IMG/VR virus record: IMGVR_UViG_3300027747_000049
Location: 1-24,900 of that record
DNA: 24,900 bases
Strand: one strand, 5' to 3'
Origin: a virus
Position numbers and translations under genes: made by a program. Position 1 is the first letter of the stretch; each line of letters opens with the position of its first letter. Shown one piece after another: positions 5,648 through 18,336 of the stretch. A model generated the notes under the pieces. The model worked only from the letters and a program-made list of their open reading frames with translations, ran no database searches and had not been told where the DNA came from.

Positions 5648-5653
5648 TTTGGG

Positions 5654-5750
5654 TATAATCCTACCCAACACGGGGATGTTCTTAGCAACATCCTTCTTCT
5701 GCCCTTACGGGGACAAAAGGCCAGCTATGTTCACATATGCTGGCTTTTTT
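5654..5750 (+). ncRNA. Putative small RNA: TATAAT box, three hairpins, terminator
   Basis: A perfect TATAAT (5654-5659) is followed by stem GGATGTT/AACATCC (5674-5680 with 5687-5693, six-base loop), a small CCC/GGG hairpin (5702-5704 with 5709-5711) and the terminator hairpin. A transcript of about 85 bases would result. No good -35 element is found 16-18 bases upstream, so it may instead be the structured 3' end of the early mRNA. Confidence 0.35.
5720..5750 (+). terminator. Intrinsic terminator between convergent operons
   Basis: GCCAGC-TATG pairs with CATA-(T)-GCTGGC around a TTCA loop (5720-5744), followed by six T (5745-5750). On the minus strand the same stem is followed by CTTTTG, so it can also end the late operon just after the metallophosphoesterase stop. 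Confidence 0.88.
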
Positions 5751-5755
5751 GTTCT

Positions 5756-6706
5756 TTAAAGACCACTTACATCAATCACTTCACCACGGAACTCAATCTG
5801 TCCATCGTCCCATTTGTGGACAAGTTCAGGCCAAAGCAGCTTGCCATCCTTGATTGTCAGTACGGCAAAGCCGGAGCGATGGTTCAATGGATTGCCTTCA
5901 CCGTACTCAAACTGAGGGCCATAAGGCTCTGCAAGAGTTCCTGTATCCACGCCAAAGCGGTTGCCGTTGTAGTCTGCGAAGGGTGTGACTTTTAGACTGT
6001 GCAAATGACCCGTTACGATGCTTTTACCAGCGCCAACGGTGTTGTTGTGGGCTGCATGGATGCCGCCTTTGTAGCGGTGCTTGACAATAATGTCATTTGT
6101 TACCCAAGTAAGCATACAAAATGACCAATCCATCAAGTGGTCTGACAGCTTAAATCCCGGAGTCTGGAAATATTGTGGGGCATTGGCAGCAAGACGCATC
6201 TCAAACCGCGCATCATGGTTGCCCATTGTGTAGATCAGCTTTGCGTTGTGCCGAGCCTTTTTGGTTGCTTCAGACACCTCCCCCAACATCTCTTTACAGG
6301 TATTGAGTTCTTCAATCAGGCTGGGTGTACGACTCCATCCCAAAGGTGGATGGCGAGATACAGATGCACCATCAAAAGCGTCGCCATTGCAAATAACTGC
6401 TTTCGGTTGTAGCTTTTCAATCGCCCACAGTAAGCCTTGAAAAGCAGTAGTCCGTATCCCAGGCCAGAAATGAGCGTCAGAAAAAACAATAACTGTTCCA
6501 TTTTCAATTCCAAGTTCTGATTTTGGCGGAGGTGGTGCCCAAGTTTTAACTTCTTTGTGAGTTTCCAAGTTCATGTTGTACTTCTCTGCTAATGTGTCTC
6601 TGCGCCGATAGACGTTACGAAGGTTTGTTCCCATTGCTTTAGCCATCTTTGAAGGTGACTTATGGGTTGTCCAAAGTTCAATAAATTCAGCATCAGTCGT
6701 ATTCAT
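5756..6706 (-). CDS. Calcineurin-like metallophosphoesterase with N-terminal HTH
   Basis: 316 aa. Residues 1-45 look like a helix-turn-helix (KSPSKMAKAMGTNLRNVYRRRDTL). A linker rich in Pro (57-61) follows. Residues 70-260 are a calcineurin-like phosphoesterase with its metal ligands: SDAH at 76-79, NGDAFDG at 107-113, GNHDAR at 162-167, His217/His220 in GGIHAAH, and GHLH at 233-236. The fold hydrolyses phosphomonoesters, phosphodiesters or nucleic acids using two metals; the substrate here is unknown. It is the last late gene, 45 bases after the endolysin stop, with GGGG before the ATG. The HTH fusion suggests it acts on or near DNA, perhaps as a nuclease. The C-terminal 50 residues are beta-rich. 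Confidence 0.9.
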   Translation of the reverse strand: MNTTDAEFIELWTTHKSPSKMAKAMGTNLRNVYRRRDTLAEKYNMNLETHKEVKTWAPPPPKSELGIENGTVIVFSDAHFWPGIRTTAFQGLLWAIEKLQPKAVICNGDAFDGASVSRHPPLGWSRTPSLIEELNTCKEMLGEVSEATKKARHNAKLIYTMGNHDARFEMRLAANAPQYFQTPGFKLSDHLMDWSFCMLTWVTNDIIVKHRYKGGIHAAHNNTVGAGKSIVTGHLHSLKVTPFADYNGNRFGVDTGTLAEPYGPQFEYGEGNPLNHRSGFAVLTIKDGKLLWPELVHKWDDGQIEFRGEVIDVSGL

Positions 6707-13053: not shown

Positions 13054-13779
13054 TTAACCTGCCTGCATGATAATCCAATTGGTACCATCTGATACCAATG
13101 TTGCCCATTTACCAATAGTGGCAGCTAAGATTGCTGTACCAGCCGCAGCACCACCTATTGGCACAACATTACTTGAAGCTGATACCAAAGTTTGTGCTTG
13201 ATAATTTTGAAACATTATTTCACGGCCAGTCCATAATGATGCATCTGGCAAAGTGACAATACAACTAGAACCTGACTTGTTATTTATGATCCAATTATTA
13301 GTGTCGGAAACTGTAAAGTCGGTTGTATTAGTTACTGGTGCACCACGACCAAATGCACCATTAAAAATATTTGTTCCAGTAAATGTTTGATTTGCTGGCA
13401 ATGTAGCAACTGTATTGTCAATTGCCACAGTAACATTACCTGTTGCATTGGACACTGTAATTCCAGTGCCTGCTACATTTGACAAAACACCTGTATTGGC
13501 TAAAGAAATAACGCCAACACCATTCGTAACAGAAATTCCAGCACCAGCAAACAAAGTTCTAAGTGTATACCCAGACCCATTTCCCGTAAGCAATTGACCA
13601 TTGCTTGGCAAAGTTCCTAACCCTGTTCCACCATTAACTACCGATATAATTCCATTTCCGTTACCAGTAATTGAATAAATATTGTTAAACCATACAAACC
13701 ATTCACGAGATATTGTATTGGTTTGAATGTCCACCAACGGTACTCGTGGTGCTGGAATTTGAGAAATATTTGCAGCCAT
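13054..13779 (-). CDS. Fibre-like tail protein, candidate needle or plug
   Basis: 241 aa. The start PAPRVPLVDIQTNTISREWFVWFNNIY is a common N-terminal anchor of phage tail fibres. A Gly/Asn/Val-rich beta body follows, with VVNGGTGLGTLPSNGQLLTGNGSGY (a fibre repeat) and GISVTNGVGVISLANTGV / GITVSNATGNVTVAID strand repeats. The C-terminal beta domain has WATLVSDGTNWIIMQAG. It overlaps gp10 exactly at the stop. P22 gp26, the tail needle, is 233 aa and occupies this position, but there is no long coiled coil here. A needle with a different shaft or a short fibre are both possible. Confidence 0.65.
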   Translation of the reverse strand: MAANISQIPAPRVPLVDIQTNTISREWFVWFNNIYSITGNGNGIISVVNGGTGLGTLPSNGQLLTGNGSGYTLRTLFAGAGISVTNGVGVISLANTGVLSNVAGTGITVSNATGNVTVAIDNTVATLPANQTFTGTNIFNGAFGRGAPVTNTTDFTVSDTNNWIINNKSGSSCIVTLPDASLWTGREIMFQNYQAQTLVSASSNVVPIGGAAAGTAILAATIGKWATLVSDGTNWIIMQAG

Positions 13780-15245
13780 TATGAATTGGTTGGTGAAATA
13801 ATTAATTCAGCACCCATGATGGCAATTTTTACTGGATCAGTACCAGACACTTCATAAACACGGTCACGAATTTTCATTGTCATGCCAAGACGGCGCCATA
13901 TTGTTCGGTAACCATATTGACCAATTGCACCCATTTCTTTCCAATGTTCATTTGACCAAGTATGACCACCATCATCTGACCAACGTAACATAACTTGTGG
14001 TGCAGATCCTTGACCATTATTTAACCCAACACCAGTCTCGCAATCAAGCTGAAGGCTGTGTTGCGCGGTACGTTTAAGATTGTTTTGACCTGTGGGTAAT
14101 GCACGCCATGAACGCAACCACTTTTGTTCACTACCGTTATCGGCATAAACATCTAAATCTAACGTGTAGATATTACCGTTCTCAAAGTCGCCAACAACTG
14201 TGTTGCCACCAAAATTGCATTGGCAATTGCTGCGGTGACGAGAAAATGCACCATCATTAAATGCAGCACGTTCATGCCATGCTTGTGTTGATACGTCATA
14301 AACCCAAGTGGCGTTAGCGCTTGGAAACGTCAGAACATAAAAGGAATGACCTTCTTGCTGGTATGTATAAGCCAAAGCATCGGCAATGTTGCCATATTGG
14401 GCAATTGCATACTCAATAGCATGGGTAGACACACGGGCAGCAGCATAACCGTTGGCTTTGTAAACAATACCTTGTCCACGAGCGTCTGTACCAAGCCAGA
14501 ATAGGGTGTTATCGAGCTTGGCAACTGAGAATGCAGCTACACATCCAATTTCGTTAAAAGCACCTTGAATGGGCGTTAATGGGAAGTTGGCAAGACCAGC
14601 GTTGTACCAGACTTCAGTTGAATCAGTTCCAAAAACCCAAAGCTGTCGATGGTCGGTGTTGATTGCCACTACACCATCTGGTGAACCATCAGCACTAGAA
14701 AAAAACAACGAATTAAATACTAGTGGATAAATGTATTCACCCGATGCTGGATTTACTGTATCAACAGACCAAAGTCTCTGACTATTGGGTTCATTAAAAA
14801 TAAACTGAGTATCCAAATAACCAACTGTTACAGCGCCTGGAAAATTAACATCAGTAATTTGGTTGAACTCATTAGTTGGTTCGTAATATGTGTAACTAGG
14901 GCCGTTGCAGGCAAAGAAGATGACCGCGCCGTTGTCAGCAATAGAAACGGGGCCACTTCCCGACACATCACCAATTTTGACTGGAGTATCAGTCAATCCA
15001 GTAAGTTTGTAAACTTCTGTACCTGATACAACATAAAAGTCTGTGCCATTTGTTTGATGTGCCCAAAGTCCACGGATAGGGCCAGTACCTACAGTTTGTA
15101 AAAAGTTCAAACCTGGTGCACGATTTAAAAATCCAGCTTCTTTTCCACCTTCTGGAACAATTTCTGGGAACAAATTAATCATGCGGTTGTCCGCAGCGTT
15201 GATACTGCGAGCAACATAACTTGAGCCAAGAATTGGCGTTTTCAT
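13779..15245 (-). CDS. P22 gp10-like packaged DNA stabilisation / tail accessory protein
   Basis: 488 aa against 472 for P22 gp10. It starts KTPILGSSYVARSINAADNRMINLFPEI, the family's typical opening. A run of beta-propeller-like blades follows, with FNSLFFSSADGSPDGVVAINTDHRQLWVFGTDSTEVWYNAG (about 178-218) and LFWLGTDARGQGIVYKANGYAA. A C-terminal RWSDDGGHTWSNEHWKEMGAIGQYGYRTIWRRLG region occurs in many gp10 homologues. It caps the portal-gp4 complex and keeps the DNA in after packaging. Overlap with the gp4 stop (TAATG) supports coupled synthesis. Confidence 0.92.
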   Translation of the reverse strand: MKTPILGSSYVARSINAADNRMINLFPEIVPEGGKEAGFLNRAPGLNFLQTVGTGPIRGLWAHQTNGTDFYVVSGTEVYKLTGLTDTPVKIGDVSGSGPVSIADNGAVIFFACNGPSYTYYEPTNEFNQITDVNFPGAVTVGYLDTQFIFNEPNSQRLWSVDTVNPASGEYIYPLVFNSLFFSSADGSPDGVVAINTDHRQLWVFGTDSTEVWYNAGLANFPLTPIQGAFNEIGCVAAFSVAKLDNTLFWLGTDARGQGIVYKANGYAAARVSTHAIEYAIAQYGNIADALAYTYQQEGHSFYVLTFPSANATWVYDVSTQAWHERAAFNDGAFSRHRSNCQCNFGGNTVVGDFENGNIYTLDLDVYADNGSEQKWLRSWRALPTGQNNLKRTAQHSLQLDCETGVGLNNGQGSAPQVMLRWSDDGGHTWSNEHWKEMGAIGQYGYRTIWRRLGMTMKIRDRVYEVSGTDPVKIAIMGAELIISPTNS

Positions 15246-15970
15246 TAGAAATTGCCTGCGTAAACGTTAAAGCGTTGACGATTGGCTACCATTGCGTAAG
15301 GCATTGCCATTACATCGTCAGGGTTGTTAATGCGCTTTAAATTGCGCTTACTAGTCATAGCAATACGAGTCACTTGAGGGCTTGGTTCCACGCCAAACTC
15401 AGGCGCAATCTCCATTGCCAAGTTATAAGTAAACGCCCTGAGATAACCGGGTGGAAAATACAAAACAGTTGACAAGTCTGCTGGTTGATCCAATTCCTGT
15501 ACGCTAATAAAGTGCCATTCCAAGTCTTGAGTAGGACGAGGGTAAATAGTCATCTGGATATTAGGAAACTCCATGTTAATCCACATGACTTGTGGATAAG
15601 TGGAGGTCACAGTCTTTACAGCAATTCCATCATACTGTTGTTGATTAATAAATTTGATGCCATATGAAACACCATTTGGCGCTTTAAAGTAAGTTGCATC
15701 ATCTAGCAACACAGGACGCACGCCATCAAAACCACCTATGCTGGCACCACTTGGGCCAAGGTGGCGTTGAATTTCACCAGCAGGCCAAGTAAAGGTTTGA
15801 TCAATGGTATTGAAAATTGAGAGGCGTTCAGTATTCCACGAGTCAATCATTTGATTGAGCGCCATTAACGAATCTTGAGAAGTAGCCGCAGATGGTACTT
15901 CGTCTTCAGCAAGCACACCAAGCAGTCTAAGTGCACGATTAATTTGATCGCCAGCGGTATATGTGGTCAT
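15245..15970 (-). CDS. P22 gp4-like tail accessory factor / head-to-tail adaptor
   Basis: 241 aa. The N-terminal TAGDQINRALRLLGVLAEDEVPSAATSQDSLMALNQMIDSWNTERLSIF is the signature of the P22 gp4 group. The middle is beta-rich (PQVMWINMEFPNIQMTIYPRPTQDLEWHFI) and PPGYLRAFTYNLAMEIAPEFG a conserved helix. P22 gp4 (166 aa) binds the portal and also has muramidase activity. This version is longer, with no clear active-site motif visible, so only the adaptor role is inferred. The start lies 3 bases after the previous stop. Confidence 0.88.
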   Translation of the reverse strand: MTTYTAGDQINRALRLLGVLAEDEVPSAATSQDSLMALNQMIDSWNTERLSIFNTIDQTFTWPAGEIQRHLGPSGASIGGFDGVRPVLLDDATYFKAPNGVSYGIKFINQQQYDGIAVKTVTSTYPQVMWINMEFPNIQMTIYPRPTQDLEWHFISVQELDQPADLSTVLYFPPGYLRAFTYNLAMEIAPEFGVEPSPQVTRIAMTSKRNLKRINNPDDVMAMPYAMVANRQRFNVYAGNF

Positions 15971-15972
15971 GA

Positions 15973-16161
15973 TTAAGCCTGTTCAGTTTCACCTTTTCGG
16001 GTGTATTTTCGCTTTACCACAAGTGTGTTAACCGCTTCTTCGGGTTCCGAAGGCGTATTAGGATTGTAGCGCACCCAGCCATTTTCTTCATCGGCATCAG
16101 CTTCTAAATCAAGAGTTGCTACTTTAGCGCCGTGAATGGGATGTTTTAGGTAAATGACCAT
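15973..16161 (-). CDS. Hypothetical 62-aa late protein
   Basis: 62 aa. A beta-rich start with IYLKHPIHGAKVATLDLEADADEENGWVRYNP is followed by a Pro/Glu linker and a basic tail (VVKRKYTRKGE). No family recognised; its place between decoration and gp4 genes suggests a minor head or neck protein. The ATG follows directly after a terminator-like hairpin and its T-tract, with no Shine-Dalgarno in the usual window. Confidence 0.7.
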   Translation of the reverse strand: MVIYLKHPIHGAKVATLDLEADADEENGWVRYNPNTPSEPEEAVNTLVVKRKYTRKGETEQA

Positions 16162-16167
16162 ATTTAA

Positions 16168-16192
16168 AAATGGGGGTGATTAGCCCCCATTT
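16168..16192 (-). terminator. Terminator-like hairpin after second decoration gene
   Basis: A perfect 9-bp stem (AAATGGGGG at 16168-16176 with CCCCCATTT at 16184-16192) has a 7-base loop and, on the minus strand, is followed by TTTTTAAAT. It lies between the 137-aa gene and the 62-aa gene. It closely resembles the hairpin at 16636-16662. Confidence 0.78.
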
Positions 16193-16207
16193 GGTTTGCT
16201 CATCGTA

Positions 16208-16621
16208 TTAGGATGCGCCGTGGATAATGCAGAAGTTAATGATTACAGCTTCAGAGTATGAAGTTGCACTTAAATTTCGCAATGAGATTGAGGCAGAACC
16301 AGCAGTCATATTAGAAATGTAAGTGGTGTAAGCACCAGCACTGCTACCAGTTGTGACACTAGAAACACACACAATGATTGTGTCATTGGTGGAAAGCAGA
16401 TTGTTGTTCAACGTAAATGTTGCTACTGCACCACCAGCCAATGCTGCATTATTCATTGTAATACGACCAGCAGACTTGTTCAGCGTTACTGCTGTAGACT
16501 TGTCCGTCAATTGAGTTACAGTACCTTGAGCTGCTGTACTGTAGCCAATTTCTTGGCTTGCATAGCAAGTTGTAAATTCTGGGTCAATGTAGGCGACACC
16601 AGTTGCTTGAGTATTGGACAT
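16208..16621 (-). CDS. Decoration-like structural protein
   Basis: 137 aa. After a short N-terminal arm, the segment GTVTQLTDKSTAVTLNKSAGRITMNNAALAGGAVATFTLNN (about 33-73) is a beta-strand pattern common in small phage head proteins. More strands follow (DTIIVCVSSV, ISLRNLSATSYSEAVIINFCII). It probably binds the coat lattice. AAGGA lies about 7 bases before the ATG, directly after the T-tract of the upstream hairpin. It is flanked on both sides by near-identical stem-loops. Confidence 0.72.
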   Translation of the reverse strand: MSNTQATGVAYIDPEFTTCYASQEIGYSTAAQGTVTQLTDKSTAVTLNKSAGRITMNNAALAGGAVATFTLNNNLLSTNDTIIVCVSSVTTGSSAGAYTTYISNMTAGSASISLRNLSATSYSEAVIINFCIIHGAS

Positions 16622-16635
16622 AATTATTCCTTTAA

Positions 16636-16662
16636 AAATGGGGGTTGTTTAGACCCCCATTT
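16636..16662 (-). terminator. Terminator-like hairpin after first decoration gene
   Basis: A perfect 10-bp stem (AAATGGGGGT at 16636-16645 with ACCCCCATTT at 16653-16662) has a 7-base loop and is followed on the minus strand by TTTTTAAA. It lies between the 135-aa and 137-aa genes. Confidence 0.8.
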
Positions 16663-16666
16663 AACT

Positions 16667-17074
16667 TTAGGCCACTTTGTACACAGTGTACGCAGCATCA
16701 CCAGTCTTGCGGAACCGGAACAATGCACTAGCAGTCACAGCAACAGCTACGAAAGCGTTACCGCCATCAGTGATACCAGTAGCAGTTGCCAAAGTCACCG
16801 TACCAGACGAGGTGCCGATGTTGACAATGTTCAGGTCAAACGTGCTACCAACTTTTGCGCTGGTCACAACTGCATCAATAGCAGCAGCGGTAGGCAAAGT
16901 GTAAGTAGCAGCAGAAGTGCCGGGATTGGCAACCAGCATTTCGCCAGTAACTTGAGCAGCCGTCAAAGTTGCCGTTGCAGTGGCAGTTTGAGGTGCGTTC
17001 ATGTAACCAAGAGTGAGTTCGTTCAGATTGCCGTCACCGAGTTGGTAACCGCCTGCGCCATTTGGGAGAGCCAT
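16667..17074 (-). CDS. Decoration-like structural protein downstream of coat
   Basis: 135 aa. The start MALPNGAGGYQLGDGNLNE is one I associate with late proteins beside coat genes in related phages. The body is Ala/Thr/Val-rich beta strands (TATLTAAQVTGEMLVANPGTSAATYTLPTAAAID) ending with ASALFRFRKTGDAAYTVYKVA. It probably stabilises or decorates the capsid. AAGGA precedes the ATG. It lies in the same region as, but shares no obvious sequence identity with, the following 137-aa protein. Confidence 0.75.
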   Translation of the reverse strand: MALPNGAGGYQLGDGNLNELTLGYMNAPQTATATATLTAAQVTGEMLVANPGTSAATYTLPTAAAIDAVVTSAKVGSTFDLNIVNIGTSSGTVTLATATGITDGGNAFVAVAVTASALFRFRKTGDAAYTVYKVA

Positions 17075-17090
17075 GATAGATTCCTTTCAG

Positions 17091-17121
17091 ATTAAAAAAC
17101 AAAGAACGGGGCCGAAGCCCC
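17091..17121 (-). terminator. Terminator after the coat gene
   Basis: On the minus strand GGGGC-TTCG-GCCCC (17121 down to 17108), with a stable UUCG tetraloop, is followed by GTTCTTTGTTTTTT. It lies between the coat stop and the first decoration gene. Confidence 0.82.
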
Positions 17122-17127
17122 ATTCAA

Positions 17128-18336
17128 TTAGCCCCAGAGACGAACGCCCATTTGAGGACGGATCGTGCTGTAGCCGTACAAAACGTCAATACGGCAAGGC
17201 ATACGGTCATTGTTGATGTCGTACTGACGTACAACACGCAAGCTGATACCGTTGTGAACTGCGCGAGCAGCCATGTCAACACCTTGGGGCAGCAGCAGGT
17301 CAGCAGTTGCAAAGGTGATGGCATCCTTGTGATAGACCAAGTTTTGTGCGTACTGGGTAGAAGCTGCACCGTAGAACACTACAGCTTTGCTAGAACCAGG
17401 GAAGCTATCCACAGTTGCCAAAGCATTGGCAGAGGTGTAGATGGGTGCCACAGTGATGTTACCAGCGCCAGACGAGTCCAGAGTTGTTGCAGCGGTAGCA
17501 ACAAATTGGAACAAGGAGCCGGTAGATTCACGAGTTTGTGGGTTTACAGCGTAGCAGTCAGCCACGGTGAAAACGTCACCAATCTTAACCACGCCAGCGT
17601 TACCAGCACCAGTGATGGCGATGGTAGTTGCGCCTTGAGCAGTCACAGCGGCAGAAGTCGTACCGCCAGTAGCAGAACGAGAACCGGTGGTAAATTGCTT
17701 GATTGACTGAGACATATTGATCTCGTCAAAGCCCAACACGCCAGTGCCCATCATGCCGTTTTTAAACTGCTTGCTGATGGTGTCGGTGGGATTGAACAGA
17801 CCTTTCATGCCTTCAACCAAACCAGCGTTTGCAGCAGGGTTGACGGTAGCGTAACGTGGGGTCATTACGGCAGCGTTCTCGTTCAGCTTCTGCTGGGCTT
17901 GCAACAGCACCAAAGAAGTGGCGGGAGTCGTACCAGGAGTGCCAACAGAATTGCCGATGTTCAGATAAGCATTAGCAACGTCAGCATCAATGCTGGAGGC
18001 CAACTGGCTGATACGAGGCTTCAACACACGCTCTGCAAAGTCATCCAATTGCATGGTCAATTCAGCAGATGTGAAGTTGACGCCAATATGCTTTTGGCTG
18101 GCAACGGTCAAAGTGGTGTACTGTTCGTTGTCGTCCTGAACTTGCAGGGCGGCACCGTCAGTAACCAAAGCGCGGTCAGGCAGGCGGATACGCAGGGTAG
18201 AACCAATTTTGGCACCTTCAACAGCAAAGCTGTCGTCGTACTGACGGTTTACGTTACGGGTAAGAACAAGATTGTTTTCCAAGATTTCCAGCGATTTGCG
18301 GGTAATCATGTCAATCGTTAGGATGCTATTCGACAT
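17128..18336 (-). CDS. Major capsid protein, P22 coat (gp5) type
   Basis: 402 aa against 430 for P22 coat. It starts SILTIDMITRKSLEILENNLVLTRNVNRQYDDSFA, the N-terminal pattern of the P22 coat family. It continues with KIGSTLRIRLPDRALVTDGAALQVQDDNEQYTTLTVASQKHIGVNFTSAELTMQLDDFAERVLKPRI, the HK97-fold start with long helix and extended loop. The C-terminal RVVRQYDINNDRMPCRIDVLYGYSTIRPQMGVRLWG is also typical. It builds the icosahedral shell. It follows the scaffold gene by 22 bases with an AAAGGA Shine-Dalgarno and is followed by a terminator. Confidence 0.93.
   Translation of the reverse strand: MSNSILTIDMITRKSLEILENNLVLTRNVNRQYDDSFAVEGAKIGSTLRIRLPDRALVTDGAALQVQDDNEQYTTLTVASQKHIGVNFTSAELTMQLDDFAERVLKPRISQLASSIDADVANAYLNIGNSVGTPGTTPATSLVLLQAQQKLNENAAVMTPRYATVNPAANAGLVEGMKGLFNPTDTISKQFKNGMMGTGVLGFDEINMSQSIKQFTTGSRSATGGTTSAAVTAQGATTIAITGAGNAGVVKIGDVFTVADCYAVNPQTRESTGSLFQFVATAATTLDSSGAGNITVAPIYTSANALATVDSFPGSSKAVVFYGAASTQYAQNLVYHKDAITFATADLLLPQGVDMAARAVHNGISLRVVRQYDINNDRMPCRIDVLYGYSTIRPQMGVRLWG

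Follow-up and report, generated by a model that had tools for sequence, protein, structure and literature searches.

Hairpins behind the coat and decoration-type genes of a P22-type head operon as putative 3'-end elements

How are hundreds of coat copies and only a few connector copies obtained from one operon? This question, which concerns the P22-type and the lambda-type phages, is also raised by the stretch of DNA analysed here over its whole length, a 24.9-kb virus record (the window), in which the plus strand carries the early genes and the minus strand the structural genes. Reading along the minus strand, a scaffold-like gene is followed by the coat gene, a 135-aa gene, a 137-aa gene, a 62-aa gene, a gp4-like gene and a gp10-like gene. 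A preliminary description of this DNA had claimed three terminator-like hairpins on the coding strand, one after coat and one after each of two decoration genes, and had proposed either sequential attenuation of transcription or protection of mRNA ends as their action.

Three hairpins among the head genes

The coat (major capsid) gene (17128..18336, minus strand; 402 aa) is of the P22 gp5 type (PF11651, 5e-37; phrog_283, 1.7e-72). The 135-aa gene (16667..17074, minus strand; phrog_673, 2e-6) encodes a probable capsid decoration or spike protein, an assignment supported by an AlphaFold model (pLDDT 83.8) for which Foldseek returned as best match in the PDB the capsid spike of Pseudomonas phage Pa223 (9ny6_C, E 1.5e-5, TM 0.49 by query). 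For the 137-aa gene (16208..16621, minus strand; phrog_18251) the model (pLDDT 75.3) predicts an all-beta protein without significant match to PDB folds, possibly a second decoration protein. The claim that the hairpins follow coat and decoration genes is confirmed for coat, supported by fold for the 135-aa gene and unproven for the 137-aa gene. Further downstream on the minus strand are the 62-aa gene (15973..16161), located between the third hairpin and gp4 at a position that matches orf69 of P22, the gp4-like head-tail adaptor gene (15245..15970; phrog_637, 4.9e-12; PF11650 below cut-off) and the gp10-like head closure gene (13779..15245; phrog_578, 1.1e-122). Where the early and the structural genes converge, at 5648-5755, several tandem inverted repeats are found; one of them, on the plus strand, has a T-tailed stem GCCAGC...GCTGGC and is likely a true end-of-operon terminator.

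All three claimed hairpins are present on the minus strand, and they rank first, second and third in stability among the simple hairpins of this entire strand. Hairpin 1 (GGGGC-UUCG-GCCCC, then TTTGTTTTTT; core 17108-17121, extended stem 17104-17125, minus strand, -14.8 kcal/mol) combines a UUCG loop with a T-tract and begins 2 nt past the coat stop, its core 6 nt past it. Hairpin 2 (16636..16662, minus strand, -14.1 kcal/mol) is GGGGGU-CUAAACA-ACCCCC with an A-U extension, then AUUUUUAAAGGA, or in DNA letters AAATGGGGGT-CTAAACA-ACCCCCATTT, with the first G 8 nt past the stop of the 135-aa gene. Hairpin 3 (16168..16192, minus strand, -12.8 kcal/mol) is GGGGG-CUAAUCA-CCCCC, also with an A-U extension, then AUUUUUAAAUAUG (DNA letters AAATGGGGG-CTAATCA-CCCCCATTT), and its first G lies 19 nt past the stop of the 137-aa gene. 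The stem AAATGGGGG/CCCCCATTT is common to hairpins 2 and 3, whose loops are CUAAACA and CUAAUCA, respectively.

The hairpins are G+C-rich, as those of intrinsic (Rho-independent) terminators are. A generic terminator scan of the window detected 20 sites as compared to 15.4 +/- 4.5 in shuffles, and hairpin 1 was the only one of the three among them. In hairpins 2 and 3 part of the T-run sits within the stem. A standard terminator score, d, is 28.0 for hairpin 1 and borderline for hairpins 2 and 3 (1.8 and 4.0), and a T-tract directly behind the stem is likewise present at hairpin 1 and borderline at the other two. Internal promoters as another source of a gradient were rejected, as a consensus scan gave 25 sites versus 30.2 in shuffles and hence no signal. 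A known Rfam element was likewise rejected, since no curated RNA family matched (no matches at gathering in the window and none at E<=1 in 16100-17200).

Conservation of the hairpins among relatives

Relatives of the coat protein are found in at least 600 contig stretches, of which the best 80 were kept, making 81 loci together with the window. A hairpin lies within 48 nt past the coat stop in 75 of the 81 loci, past the stop of the 135-aa gene in 77 of the 78 in which this gene was recognised, and past the stop of the 137-aa gene in 54 of 54, as compared to 129 of 1215 control windows in coat coding sequence and 103 of 630 in the gp4 region (11-16%). The median dG is about -13 kcal/mol at the junctions versus -7 in the control hairpins. 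Counted as distinct gaps of at least 25 nt, a hairpin is found in 59 of 65 behind coat, 48 of 49 behind the 135-aa gene and 38 of 38 behind the 137-aa gene; before the scaffold gene it is rare (7 of 52 gaps of at least 25 nt), and in shuffles of the better-sampled gaps it arises in 5-15%. Chance or simple composition as origin of the hairpins is rejected by this conservation, measured against the shuffles and the coding-window controls. Between the 62-aa gene, gp4 and gp10, most gaps are a few bases long or replaced by overlaps and therefore too short for a hairpin.

What is conserved is the arrangement, although the letters change, and stem sequences differ widely among the relatives. At each of six stem positions scored, both G-C and C-G pairs are found (24, 37 and 19 distinct hairpins), in a set that had been selected as perfectly paired, so that information comes from the variety of pairs and none from the paired percentage. 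Such compensatory change indicates that the structure is under selection. Position is kept as well: the first G-C pair lies within 10 nt past the stop in 59 of 59, 46 of 48 and 36 of 38 distinct junctions (141 of 145 in total), the distances in the window being 2, 8 and 19 nt. Stable, placed between genes of an operon and conserved in structure, the hairpins have the structural properties of decay-blocking intercistronic hairpins.

The post-coat hairpin is truly absent in 4 of the 80 relatives (L003, L004, L011 and L050), in which the spacer between the coat stop and the next start is about 28 nt long versus about 55 nt elsewhere; being some 27 nt shorter, these spacers represent natural deletions. 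Two other relatives (L030 and L080) have imperfect post-coat stems. A wider set comprised 16 named phage records, taken from the 75 that gave a match. In 12 of these 16 the script found a post-coat hairpin, including Pseudomonas PAE2, Xanthomonas PBR31, Rhodoferax P26218, Shewanella X14, Thalassomonas BA3 and Vibrio VvAW1, and in L101, L105, L106 and L113 it found none; on inspection by eye, L101 and L106 do have stems. Among looser relatives in bacterial assemblies a hairpin was present at 5 of 12 coat ends examined, from 18 loci. The post-coat hairpin is thus not universal, which counts against the explanation favoured below.

A single post-coat stem-loop is already annotated in P22 and HK97. 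The P22 record has a stem-loop at 6102-6119 behind coat, described as 'putative; similar in location to stem-loops in phage HK97 and phage lambda', with a UGCG loop of the UNCG type. In HK97 putative terminators are annotated behind the head gene gp5 and around the major tail gene. In lambda (L117) a T-tailed hairpin lies between the decoration gene D and E (602-615) and a UUCG hairpin without T-tract behind the capsid gene E (1664-1681), neither of them annotated as a feature in the record as displayed. CUUCGG hairpins, with the UUCG loop of hairpin 1, also occur between genes in the mRNAs of the unrelated phage T4. Hairpin 1, standing behind coat and before the gp4 region, belongs to the P22-type post-capsid stem-loops. 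Unlike P22, HK97 and lambda, the window has three hairpins in succession, one per gene from coat through the second added gene, two of these hairpins with CUAANCA loops. Where relatives have a single gene inserted, two hairpins are present, and P22, with none inserted, has one. The tandem, gene-by-gene arrangement with a recurrent loop is a variant of the known post-coat hairpin.

Termination, protection and other explanations

Why is a hairpin kept behind each of these genes? With moderate confidence we favour that the three hairpins are conserved intercistronic 3'-end elements of abundant head genes with a dual role, in which protection of the transcript is conserved and termination depends on the lineage. 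The hairpin sits just past the stop and before the start of the next gene, where in most relatives a terminating ribosome could reach it. Leaky termination or endonuclease cutting downstream would yield ends, and 3'-to-5' exonucleases approaching from these ends would halt at the hairpin. Messages whose last gene is coat, and in turn those whose last gene is the first or the second decoration-type gene, would pile up above the 62-aa/gp4/gp10 segment, and differential decay of this kind could set up the copy-number gradient. Stem protection would be the conserved part and termination a second, lineage-dependent activity, on paper strongest at hairpin 1 of the window. The hairpins would in this way probably give the most-needed proteins durable messenger ends of their own.

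The strongest competitor, possible but rather doubtful, is a series of leaky intrinsic terminators, at each of which a fraction of the polymerases halts so that the transcript steps down from coat to gp10, as in the phiX174 model. Both readings fit the pattern as such, and the T-tracts are most informative about them. Besides the d values of the window (28.0, 1.8 and 4.0), d is above zero in 14 of 59, 24 of 48 and 23 of 38 distinct junctions behind coat, the 135-aa and the 137-aa gene, respectively, and at least three T (nT>=3) are counted in 11 of 59, 20 of 48 and 24 of 38. When compared to shuffled tails, the relatives show an excess of T adjoining hairpins 2 and 3 (z 13.5 in 68 tails and z 6.4 in 45 tails, both inflated by the purine-rich ribosome site in the tail), which argues for termination at these sites and against a pure protection model, as this needs no T. 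In the 62 post-coat tails of 20 nt there is no excess of T adjoining the hairpin (z 0.49), precisely where attenuation would matter most. Of the 72 loci scored on the coat tree, 14 have a post-coat T-tract with nT>=3, and this trait changes 10 times, in a scoring that counted L026, L034 and L035 as hairpin-less because the ribosome-site cut fell inside the stem. That the hairpin is kept in most relatives while the T-tract changes 10 times supports protection as the conserved part. Moreover, stability and T-tract of the post-coat hairpin trade off (Spearman 0.71, not corrected for phylogeny), which also speaks against leaky terminators.

Translation adds a further argument. In the study by Li et al., termination at a terminator 5 bp behind a stop codon dropped from about 90% to below 10% through translation (PMC4824070). 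Most hairpins of the relatives lie within 10 nt of the stop, that is in the range where translation represses termination. Two further observations count against giving protection the first place. Hairpin 1 with its d of 28 scores as a good terminator, and the terminator score of the post-coat hairpins does not differ from that of 23 E. coli unit-end hairpins (p 0.75), albeit this control, with 32 operon ends, 23 hairpins and 11 with d above zero, is too mixed a set to discriminate. Taken together, attenuation by termination alone is weakened by the unconserved post-coat T-tract and by the closeness of the stems to the stop, and retains the evidence of hairpin 1, the T enrichment behind hairpins 2 and 3 and the E. 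coli comparison.

Studies on other systems provide precedents for both activities. The hairpins TJ, TF, TG and TH of phiX174, located behind consecutive capsid genes like those of the window, act as leaky terminators (PMC3335065, PMC9135205); the resulting mRNAs decrease stepwise, and the TJ structure is also described there as stabilising the mRNA (PMC3335065). phiX174 differs in being an unrelated ssDNA phage in which this behaviour was measured, whereas for the window we infer it, and the post-coat T-tract is not conserved here. For phage L, partial termination inside a late operon with a single promoter has been proposed, and the role of intra-operon hairpins is stated there as not known (PMC8022706). 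A closer likeness to protection is offered by puf, malEFG and menBCE, in which a stable hairpin stands behind the more abundant gene of a polycistron and the T-tract is dispensable. In the puf operon stoichiometry is linked to a hairpin (PMC6238624), in menBCE consecutive hairpins go with stepwise abundance, and of 34 E. coli operon segments stabilised at the 5' gene, 26 end at a stable hairpin without U-tract, such hairpins being protective of the upstream segment according to Dar and Sorek (PMC5927463). In the same study 17 of 26 decay-blocking structures of E. coli are located within the next gene (PMC5927463), in contrast to the position between genes of a phage operon seen here, where they would be protective by analogy. 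The variable post-coat T-tract, the proximity to the stop, the published protective hairpins and phiX174 together favour the dual role with protection as its conserved part. Comparison of the family also sharpens the question of the coat-to-connector ratio: a post-coat structure that is kept while its T-tract is not predicts protected ends more than halted polymerases.

It could also be imagined that the hairpins serve translation, by preventing ribosomes from sliding into the next ribosome site or structure from forming over it, so that the genes are translated independently. The nearly fixed spacing from the stop and the location of the next ribosome site immediately 3' of the hairpin in most junctions inspected would suit such an element. 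It is nevertheless improbable, given that the four relatives lacking the post-coat hairpin retain a normal ribosome site and that L412 has a hairpin of the same kind with the next annotated gene some 180 nt away. Genes for ssDNA-binding proteins are usually not late genes, and hairpins of the same class are found behind such genes as well. This makes it quite unlikely that the hairpins are filters that stop polymerases not originating from the late promoter while late transcription is resistant, as proposed for phage L (PMC8022706); nor was an antiterminator recognised among the scanned genes of the incomplete window. Equally unlikely are exchange joints, that is short conserved hairpins as homology for the swapping of decoration-gene cassettes: the gene content between hairpins is variable, the 137-aa gene is flanked by the near-identical hairpins 2 and 3, and L242 carries an identical 19-mer, GGGGGTCTAAACAACCCCC, at one junction and again at the next, a hint that hairpins are duplicated or exchanged, but stem sequences differ widely among relatives and a DNA homology joint needs no compensatory change.

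A recurrent CUAAHCA hairpin in other phages

The 17-mer of hairpin 3 also recurs behind abundant-protein genes of unrelated phages, which is new here. At least 120 viral contigs contain the exact 17-mer, and at least 120 more contain it with A, C or G as the fifth letter of the loop (CTAAACA 70, CTAACCA 48 and CTAAGCA 2 among the matches listed), so that GGGGG-CUAAHCA-CCCCC is found in at least 240 viral contigs in total. G is nearly missing at the fifth loop position (2 of 120 among the matches listed, in a scan leaving T out). A permuted loop gave no matches and another permuted loop with three variants gave 12. The CUAAHCA-type loop on two other stems gave 9 and 15 matches; as the stem was part of the search pattern, its conservation is to be judged by these two swapped-stem scans only. 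A host-terminator origin was rejected, the hairpin being found in none of 200 bacterial genomes from a single order, that of a Rhodoferax MAG. The loop sequence CUAAHCA is not named in the literature searched, by which absence from print is not claimed.

Which genes precede this hairpin? At 196 of 238 listed loci an upstream ORF of at least 80 aa ends within 40 nt, mostly 5-9 nt away, and these ORFs fall into 39 protein clusters, one of which is the lineage of the window (96 loci). Of the other 38 clusters, 37 were scanned with PHROGs (L371 left out). Nine clusters are major head or head-structural proteins (29 loci), including L198, whose hairpin, at a distance of 32 nt from the stop, may be a chance occurrence; three, with 14 loci, comprise ssDNA-binding proteins of different families, one is a tail tube protein (7 loci), two are tail-fibre-like (7 loci) and one is a homing endonuclease (3 loci), and 21 clusters are of unknown category or unmatched. 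At least three T (nT>=3) follow in 82 of the 196 listed loci with an upstream ORF, and the T-tract is therefore optional at CUAAHCA hairpins, too. Tentatively, 5'-GGGGGCUAAHCACCCCC (H = A, C or U) may be a phage-specific RNA element, located mostly 5-9 nt past the stops of abundant-protein genes (capsid, decoration, ssDNA-binding, tail tube) in unrelated tailed phages. In this reading the letters of the loop and the orientation of the stem would be preserved further than pairing requires, which suggests recognition, be it by an RNA-binding protein, an exonuclease or polymerase, or spread as a regulatory cassette. If the hairpin is recognised by something, it would constitute a 3'-end signal shared among phages and usable as an expression part. 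In addition to the contigs, the 17-mer is found behind the annotated major capsid gene of a named isolate (MW202462), and Phocaeicola phage BD26P1 has a weaker match (86.7% over 30 nt, E 2) behind a gene for an ssDNA-binding protein.
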